DNA of 64,000 nt from Caldisericaceae bacterium (GTDB lineage: Bacteria; Caldisericota; Caldisericia; Caldisericales; Caldisericaceae), in NCBI GenBank assembly GCA_027023025.1, contig JALVXB010000021.1, positions 1 through 64,000 on the forward strand, given 5' to 3'. Position numbers and translations under genes: made by a program. This document shows, piece after piece, positions 18,865 through 62,077 of the stretch. The stretch's first letter is position 1, and every line of letters starts with the position of its first letter. The notes beneath the pieces are model-generated. The model worked only from the letters and a program-made list of their open reading frames with translations. It searched no databases and had not been told where the DNA came from.

Positions 18865-19163
18865 CTTAAAGGATCAAAAAAGAAAAGAAAGCAAAAATCC
18901 AGGAGAGTTATAACTATATTGAGGATTTTCTTCTCATAACATAGTAACTAAAGTTATTGCCGCTATCAGTATGTAGAGTAAACTTACAATTACACCCACA
19001 TGTAGACTGGCCAATCTTTTGAAAAATTTTTTCCTTTTTAACTTTTAGCTAAAATGCATAGGATTTCGGGAAGAAAGAGAAGAAAAAGTTTAATTCGGCT
19101 AAAAATAATAAAAAGAAGCATTTTCTACAAAAACTTATTACACCAAAATCAGCCTAAACAAAC

Positions 19164-19301
19164 CCTGTATTTATCAGGTATCTTTCAAAATCGCTAATTT
19201 AAGGTACCTTAGAGCGCGATCTTGAGAAAAATCGGGTAAATATACCTGCAAAACGCTTAAAACGCCTTATTTTAGAAGGCAACAAAGCCTGTATTTATCA
19301 G
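19164..19301. repeat. dispersed intergenic repeat, copy A (bounded by two cctgtatttatcag 14-mers)
   Basis: 14-mer at 19164-19177 and 19288-19301; shares 17-mer acgcttaaaacgcctta (19253-19269) and further blocks with 60780-60922. Confidence 0.65.
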
Positions 19302-19835
19302 TGTTTCTTTGATTCTAGACCAAATTAAATGTGATTTGTCAGGTCATAATTTTCAGAAATCCTTTATTTATATGCATTCTTTAACGACCCAATTTTCCAC
19401 TTTTCGAACAAAAATTCGTTATTTACCGAGTAGTAATTGATAATGATTTTCAATTATAGTGGCAAAGTTTTCCAGACTTGCGGGAGTCTTGTAGTTTTTA
19501 GGTGCACAAATTTACTTTGCCGTACTTTGTATTGTGTTTCGTAAATTTAGACTTTTAAATAGATAAATAAGAATAATAGCTTTATGAGGTGTTGACCGAT
19601 TTTTAACTGGATTCATCATAGGCCTAAATTGGTTGGAATTCCATACTCTTGCTTCAATAATATAACCACAAACCCTAGAAAATAGTGGATATTCTATTTG
19701 TGCTGAATGATTTTTGATTTGTTTGTTACCGTATTTGTGCAGATGAAAACTTGATTTTTGATTTTCCATTTAATGTATACTAAGTATTTAAAAGGTTGAG
19801 TTTTAAGTGGAGTAAATATTAGTTTGTTTTTGAAG

Positions 19836-60540: not shown

Positions 60541-60692
60541 GTTTTTTTACTATTTTATTACTTTACTATGGATTTAAAAAGTAGATATATACCTCAAAAT
60601 TAACCATAGTTAATTTACAGATATGCGGATTTTGAACTTTTAGCAGAAAACAGCGATAAAGCCCATTATACAAAGCACATTTACCATTTTAG

Positions 60693-60724
60693 TAACTAAG
60701 CAATAGATACATATTGCTTAGTTA
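60693..60724. repeat. perfect 12-bp inverted repeat, 8-nt loop
   Basis: taactaagcaat-agatacat-attgcttagtta. Confidence 0.85.
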
Positions 60725-60779
60725 GAAATCACAGAGTATGCAAAATTGTGGAAAATCGTAAAAATTTGGGTCAAGGAAG

Positions 60780-60922
60780 CCTGTAATAATGCGGCCTATT
60801 TCAAACACGCTAAAATAAGGCCCGTAGACGCAAATCTTGGCCTCTCCACATATAAAAATACCTAAATGACGCTTAAAACGCCTTAAATTAGCTATTTTTT
60901 AACGAGCCATCTATTTATCAGG
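60780..60922. repeat. dispersed intergenic repeat, copy B
   Basis: cctgta..tatttcaaacacgctaaaataagg..aaatcttg..atacct..acgcttaaaacgcctta..ctatttatcagg collinear with copy A at 19164-19301. Confidence 0.6.
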
Positions 60923-62077
60923 ATTTTTAGTGGGTATAATGAGATAAAGCGACATTACAAACGCTACAAAACCAAAAGTTGAGACAATTACCATAGATGT
61001 AAGAAGCCCAATTCTATTTACGAAAGCGCTCAACGCAGAAAGCATTAAACTTGCAACTCCCCAGGAGATGCCCATACCTAAACTTGATGCAGTACCTTTC
61101 TGCTCCGGTAATAGGTCCTGCATATACACGACATTTGCTCCCATCGTAGCAAACAAGAATAAAAACGCAATTAAAAACCAGAGAAGCATAAAGTAGATAT
61201 TTTTTGCAGTAAAGAACAACCCGAGAAACAAAGTGCCAAACAAAAGCGAAAAATTGTTAACTACTTTTGGATCAAACTTATCGGAGAGTATTGCTCCAAA
61301 GTAAGTCCCAAGCATTCCGCTTATTCGCGAGCCTGTAAGGAAGTAGCCACCCCAGATTGGGGCGTATCCTATCTCTACGAGATATAACGGAATGAAAGTC
61401 GACAAACCAATAATGACAAAACTCCTTAAGATATTTACAGAGAGTAGTATTTTCACTCCCCGCTCTGTTAGTGCTTTCAGAAACGCAAAACTATTGGAAA
61501 CCTTTTCTAATTTCGCTTTCTTTTTATTGATATAGAAAAGGGAATATACAATCATTGCAATCGCTATTACTCCAAAAATAGAAAGGTAAGGCATTTTCTT
61601 CATACCAAAGCGTGCAACAAAGTAGAGAATCATTACGGGGGCAAGAGCGGAACCAAATGTTCCGCCTATAGAAAACACAGACATTGCAGTATGCGCTTTA
61701 TCGAAATTTGCATCGTGCACGAGCACTGCTGCATTGGGATGAAAAAGCGAATTGCCCAGCATTCCGATAGAAAGAAACACAATCAGCAAAAATACTGTGC
61801 TTGCTATACCTATAAGAGGAACAAAAATTACCGAAAGTAGGATGCTAACAATTACGAGTAAAGGCTCCCCGAATTTATATCCAAGGTACGCGCCAAACGG
61901 TTGCAAAAATGCCATGGCTACTCCCAAAAGCGAAGGAATGAGTGCAGCACCTCCCTGCGTTAGCGCAAACTCACTCATAAGAATTGGCAGAAGCGGTTTC
62001 AATACTCCTGCGTACCAATCAACCGTAAAGTGAGAAAATAGAAGCGATGCAAGTACGATGTCTTTATTCTTTTTCAT
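60911..62077 (-). CDS. MFS transporter (Fsr-like)
   Basis: 388 aa; LLFSHFTVDWYAGVLKPLLPILMSEFALTQGGAALIPSLLGVAMAFLQPFGAYLGYKFG; NSLFHPNAAVLVH. Confidence 0.9.
   Translation of the reverse strand: MKKNKDIVLASLLFSHFTVDWYAGVLKPLLPILMSEFALTQGGAALIPSLLGVAMAFLQPFGAYLGYKFGEPLLVIVSILLSVIFVPLIGIASTVFLLIVFLSIGMLGNSLFHPNAAVLVHDANFDKAHTAMSVFSIGGTFGSALAPVMILYFVARFGMKKMPYLSIFGVIAIAMIVYSLFYINKKKAKLEKVSNSFAFLKALTERGVKILLSVNILRSFVIIGLSTFIPLYLVEIGYAPIWGGYFLTGSRISGMLGTYFGAILSDKFDPKVVNNFSLLFGTLFLGLFFTAKNIYFMLLWFLIAFLFLFATMGANVVYMQDLLPEQKGTASSLGMGISWGVASLMLSALSAFVNRIGLLTSMVIVSTFGFVAFVMSLYLIIPTKNPDK

Follow-up and report, generated by a model that had tools for sequence, protein, structure and literature searches.

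We found that an intergenic repeat lying at two places in a 64,000-nucleotide stretch of Caldisericaceae DNA (the window) belongs to a dispersed family, and on the sequences compared here we give about an even chance to the reading that its members are old, vertically inherited, interspersed DNA repeats acting as putative palindromic protein-binding sites and not as RNA. Three features, namely positions shared between species, gene conversion among copies, and a dif-like neighbor, point to old DNA sites rather than to an RNA gene or an active transposon.

A dispersed repeat family in Caldisericales

The window belongs to a Caldisericales genome of 1.66 Mb in 43 contigs (G000) and contains two members of the family, copy A and copy B. 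Searched against its own genome, copy A gives 26 full-length matches (E 6.7e-80 to 6.4e-27), and a search with copy B also retrieves family members (best E 1.6e-9). The family in G000 thus comprises 26 full copies and the degenerate copy B (~27), plus two fragments. Consensus searches divide the full copies into subfamily I, with 18 members of ~290 bp, and subfamily II, with 8 members of ~265 bp, including copy A; across the family as a whole the repeat unit measures ~150-290 bp, and almost every copy is full length with few indels. The same-genus relative G001 (MAG Caldisericales bacterium S143_107, WFZA01) has ~20 copies, and three further genera of the same family have fewer, diverged ones. 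A profile search found no element in the complete genome of a related genus (G007), and a literature search for repeats in Caldisericum returned nothing.

An earlier note on this DNA had proposed a dispersed intergenic repeat with more copies genome-wide, to be sought by BLASTN in the genome and its relatives, and had named a lack of further copies as the outcome that would speak against it. The searches bear the repeat out, with orthologous copies in G001, and replace the two copies described there by the far larger set counted above. Chance similarity between two intergenic stretches, to which the AT-richness of both A and B might lend some color, is ruled out for practical purposes by the number and strength of the full-length matches and by the orthologous copies in a second genome.

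Anatomy of the repeat

A full copy consists of three quasi-palindromes of the CCTGTATTTATCAGG type and a fourth, central one (GGGTAAATATACC), arranged as unit 1, arm, center, second arm, unit 2, unit 3, and right-end motif. Unit 1 is CCTGTATTTATCAG, often followed by G, and unit 2 is likewise CCTGTATTTATCAG; the first arm contains GCTAATTTAAGGCC or GCCATTTAAATGCC, the center is GGGTAAATATACC or GGGTAATTATACC, and the second arm ends in CCTTATTTTAG.

Copy A is a full-length subfamily II element on the forward strand at 19160-19424 (89.9% across 266 positions when aligned by BLAST with the consensus of subfamily II). On the same strand, its sequence places unit 1 (CCTGTATTTATCAGG), which is kept in nearly all copies, at 19164-19178, and the central quasi-palindrome GGGTAAATATACC, the most conserved block across genera, at 19234-19246; unit 2 (CCTGTATTTATCAG), seen in the sequence and in alignments, follows at 19288-19301. 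Subfamily II alignments add unit 3 (CCTTTATTTATAT) at 19361-19373, beyond the boundaries given earlier, and the right-end motif CGAACAAAAATTCG, common to subfamily II copies, at 19405-19418; similarity between copies of this subfamily stops just past that motif. The blocks described in the earlier note lie where it placed them: copy A has its two exact 14-mers, one at 19164-19177 and the other at 19288-19301, and A and B have the 17-mer acgcttaaaacgcctta in common. The two 14-mers do not both bound copy A, as had been thought, since on the right the copy runs on through the third palindromic unit to ~19424.

Copy B, at ~60773-60928 on the forward strand, is a degenerate core with units 1 and 2, a remnant center, and no third unit. 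It is identified by its family hits (E 1.6e-9) and by a match to profile R1, a model of which B itself is a member; its orthologue in G001, which lies outside the model, matches the family profile with E 3.6e-22, and a position-conserved relative is present in G002. As had been noted, copy B ends within the closing codons of the MFS gene, stop included: unit 2 of B (60911-60922) encodes the last MFS codons, N-P-D-K-stop, and the same is seen in G001.

The order of these parts is the same in G005 and G002, with letters much changed, and is looser in G008. In G005, about five copies (L249, L250, L251, L253, and L254) make up a separate subfamily with center AGGTAYMCCTAATTATACCT and the same outer palindromes. 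Another dispersed repeat, GTCACTCTGAGCGNAGCGAAGAGTCTCTGCCTTAACG, whose partner ends in GGCTCAGAACGAC, adjoins the left side of many subfamily I copies (for example, L203:6341-6371 and L207:9457-9487), with no occurrence in the window.

At many places profile R1 hits the two strands together, which shows dyad symmetry. Self-complementarity is above that of shuffled sequences in copy A (p 0.013), G005:C1, and G002:C35, and is not significant against shuffles in copy B, G005:C305, and one subfamily I copy. The repeat is most naturally read as several palindromic DNA sites arranged as an imperfect dyad, which would run from unit 1 through an arm, the central palindrome, and the other arm to unit 2, with unit 3 added in the full-length form.

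Shared positions and the question of mobility

About 17 copies, copy B included, occupy the same site in the same orientation in G000 and G001, the criterion being that the flanks match on at least one side; these copies are therefore old and vertically inherited. Two sites are filled in one species only, one downstream of a tRNA-Leu gene in G001 and the other at G000:C36:81 kb, and neither offers a clean junction because the entire intergenic region differs. When L181:8500-10700 of G001 is set against C21:97372-98882 of G000, the interval from the tRNA-Leu gene to a gene likely to encode PEP carboxykinase is ~790 bp with a repeat copy in G001 and 109 bp of unrelated sequence in G000. Recent transposition was considered and rejected, as the one-species sites carry wholly different intergenic DNA and no clean empty site.

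The check for flanking target-site duplications proposed in the earlier note found none, the sharing between left and right flanks not exceeding that of shuffled pairs (p 0.92 and 0.80). Nor are the ends inverted copies of each other, the left one being AAACCCTGTATTTATCAG and the right one CGAAAAATTGTTCG or CGAACAAAAATTCG. Targeting of tRNA genes was rejected as well, few copies being found less than 500 bp from one. A transposase search covering the Y1_Tnp family alone (RAYT/Y1 transposases) detected no such domain in G000, G001, or G005, while 5 of 14 control genomes were positive, and RAYT/IS200-type mobilization was rejected on this result. The MITE-like repeat suggested earlier is not supported as a MITE in the strict sense, with no target-site duplication, no clean empty site, and positions common to two species; a mobile origin is possible.

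Concerted evolution of the copies

The flanks at shared sites are mostly 85-93% identical between G000 and G001. Within subfamily I, 8 of 9 positional orthologue pairs are less alike than one of their members and a paralogue in its own genome. Orthologues average 83.4% identity against 83.8% for random cross-species partners (p 0.80, with the pair L215/L176 left out), and the best in-genome paralogues average 91.0%; a tree of the copies has three species changes. Copy A is itself a mosaic of two other G000 copies, its first 134 aligned columns being 98.5% identical to the copy at G000:C43:64 kb (against 82.1% for the orthologue of A) and the stretch after them 96.7% identical to the copy at G000:C34:8 kb. 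Between species, few indels are found inside the elements, and the left flanks are full of them.

Shared sites and orientation together with mosaic copies argue for gene conversion, and repeated insertion fails as an explanation unless it was strictly site specific. By these sequence comparisons, the family is undergoing concerted evolution by gene conversion between copies, most clearly in G000. Homogenization is not visible in G001 (82.5% within G001 versus 83.4% between species), and AU tests of single orthologue pairs rejected orthologous pairing in one of the five tested, the mosaic sequences lessening the power of tree tests.

Little sign of a conserved RNA structure

RNAalifold over 18 diverse members returned zero consensus pairs. 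The mean folding z-score against shuffles is -1.25 for one strand and -0.84 for the other, only slightly below zero, and single copies reach -4.1. In a pairing-permutation test whose pattern excluded 12 of 38 copies, stem A gave a weak signal in G000 (p 0.0035) and a negative result in G001 (p 0.57), and stem B showed no covariation. The stem of copy A, GGTATCTT/AAGGTACC, is found only in A and in the G000:C43 copy that shares its sequence by recent exchange, and copy A's orthologue in G001 is without it. Rfam at the gathering threshold identifies two tRNAs only in the window and leaves the repeat unmatched.

The hairpins at equivalent places in A and B, taken earlier as a hint of structural conservation, lose that meaning with a stem so private, and neither RNAalifold nor the permutation test found the consistent compensatory pairing that the proposed covariation check sought. 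An RNA gene was accordingly rejected, and the idea of a structured ncRNA family did not hold up. That the repeats are a structured non-coding RNA family or a cis-regulatory RNA is very improbable: the 9-bp hairpin that copy A can form, the copies that fold better than their shuffles, and stem A beating shuffled partners in G000 speak for it, but they are set against a lack of consensus pairs, modest mean z-scores, stem B without covariation, stem A without covariation in G001, and no Rfam match.

A dif-like site beside copy B

About 50 bp from copy B, at 60695-60722, lies the 28-bp palindrome ACTAAGCAATA-GATACA-TATTGCTTAGT (no strand assigned), a dyad of 11-6-11 that is single copy in G000. 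Most genomes of the family contain a single GCAATA-N6-TATTGC, G004 and G007 contain two each, and G001 has the dif-like pattern with one change. In the complete genome G007 (1,558,103 bp), the GC skew switches at 799.7 kb, between its sites at 789 and 835 kb; in G000, a local skew peak lies 25 kb from the site, on a short contig. In G004 and G008 such a site is directly upstream of a tyrosine-recombinase gene; tyrosine recombinases are present, with only one in G007. A literature search for dif in Caldiserica returned nothing. From its sequence and setting, 60695-60722 is probably a Xer/dif site and would mark the probable replication terminus. A second palindrome, TTAACCATAGTTAA, lies at 60600-60613, ~80 bp from the dif-like site, and similar palindromes (TTAACTATGGTTAA, TTAACTATAGTTA, and TTAACTAAAGTTAA) are found near the corresponding sites in G001, G005, G004, and G003.

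The neighborhood of element and dif-like site recurs beyond the genus. In G002, which represents another genus and has an MFS protein 58% identical, the element also lies directly behind the MFS gene, and the extended pattern CTAWGCAATA-N6-TATTGCWTAG is ~40-60 bp from the element in G000, G002, and G005:C1, with the element on the same side relative to the central six bases of the palindrome. These are perhaps two independent observations and not three, because G000 and G002 share the region by descent. G004 has one weak element match (E 0.043 in a search of 64.7 kb) at a distance of ~110 bp from dif, and an element beside dif is not convincing in G003, G008, and G011.

Constraint, function, and alternative readings

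Copy B can still be recognized between genera in which the MFS orthologues share 58% identity. Since unconstrained intergenic DNA would be expected to fade between genera with proteins less than 60% identical, at least this dif-adjacent copy is probably under constraint. For the dispersed copies, constraint is not proven, because the elements, at 81-92% identity between species, do not clearly exceed the right flanks (65-96%). The copies are over-dispersed, with no within-contig gap below 11.5 kb against an expected 4.1 such gaps (p 0.008), which fits an organizing role and also fits selection against close recombining repeats. The earlier suggestion of a chromosome-organization site thus gains circumstantial support from this spacing and from copy B being held beside a dif-like site in three genera.

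We favor, with moderate confidence, putative protein-binding DNA sites, and inert mobile-element relics are a close rival. The relic reading holds that a non-autonomous mobile element (MITE or fold-back) spread in an ancestor and is now immobile, its copies homogenized by chance recombination and without host function. It is a substantial possibility, if short of an even chance, and draws on the dispersed, intergenic copies with discrete unit ends, the two sites occupied in one species only, the occurrence of separate subfamilies in several genera (five copies in the case of G005), and between-species identity close to that of other intergenic DNA. It sits less well with the lack of a target-site duplication, a Y1/RAYT transposase, or a clean empty site, and with copies that are nearly all full length and indel poor; moreover, copy B and its dif neighbor are kept at genus-level divergence, which is unexpected for unconstrained intergenic DNA. 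Mobilization of REP/BIME-type palindromes by a RAYT transposase would also produce intergenic, palindromic, interspersed repeats, often joined on the left by another dispersed repeat as here. We consider it highly unlikely, because Y1_Tnp is absent from the three genomes searched while control genomes score, and because a multi-palindrome unit of ~150-290 bp in ~27 copies is far from hundreds of 20-40 bp hairpins.

Under the favored reading of protein-binding sites, the ancestor was probably a non-autonomous mobile or fold-back element that became amplified. Its evenly built palindromes may bind a dimeric nucleoid or chromosome-organizing protein, and this binding would preserve the architecture and length of the element, which would act as double-stranded DNA and not as RNA, while RecA-type gene conversion would spread sequence variants among the copies. 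A more specific proposal is that the dif-adjacent copy is an accessory sequence for Xer/dif recombination and that one DNA-binding protein recognizes both it and the copies dispersed through the genome, as a chromosome-organizing system specific to this Caldisericales family whose sites gene conversion keeps alike; we put this forward as a speculative and rather unlikely extension.

Comparison with known systems

The matS site of Escherichia coli, bound by MatP, is a single 13-bp site confined to the terminus region. As with matS and similar organizing palindromes, tens of palindromic sites are spaced along the chromosome here, but the unit contains several palindromes and its copies lie on unordered contigs. 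In plasmid cer and psi, an accessory block of more than 100 bp of palindromic protein sites adjoins a 28-bp Xer core. Copy B is similarly a palindromic block beside a 28-bp Xer-like core site; unlike cer and psi, the dif-like site is chromosomal, and most element copies have no Xer core beside them.

REP sequences are defined, in passages of two papers (PMC3733652, PMC2817692), as a 20-40 bp palindromic unit of high copy number. REPs and BIMEs are interspersed, intergenic, and palindromic like the repeats described here and can serve as protein-binding sites, a likeness that for our repeats would hold through their putative binding. In contrast to them, these repeats come with no detected RAYT/Y1, have a larger multi-palindrome unit and a low copy number, and keep their positions between species. 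A review (PMC2229807) covers MITEs of bacteria together with other small mobile repeats. The repeats resemble MITEs in being short, non-coding, and dispersed, with discrete ends and subfamilies, and differ from them in having no target-site duplication, plain terminal inverted repeats, or clean empty site.

These repeats show clearly that dispersed non-coding repeats of bacteria can stay in place in two species while their sequences are homogenized between places, and they would allow gene conversion to be measured over distances of tens of kilobases. The palindrome at 60695-60722 is a strong candidate for the dif site of Caldisericota. If the repeats bind protein, they would give a first entry to chromosome organization in a phylum with almost no genetics.
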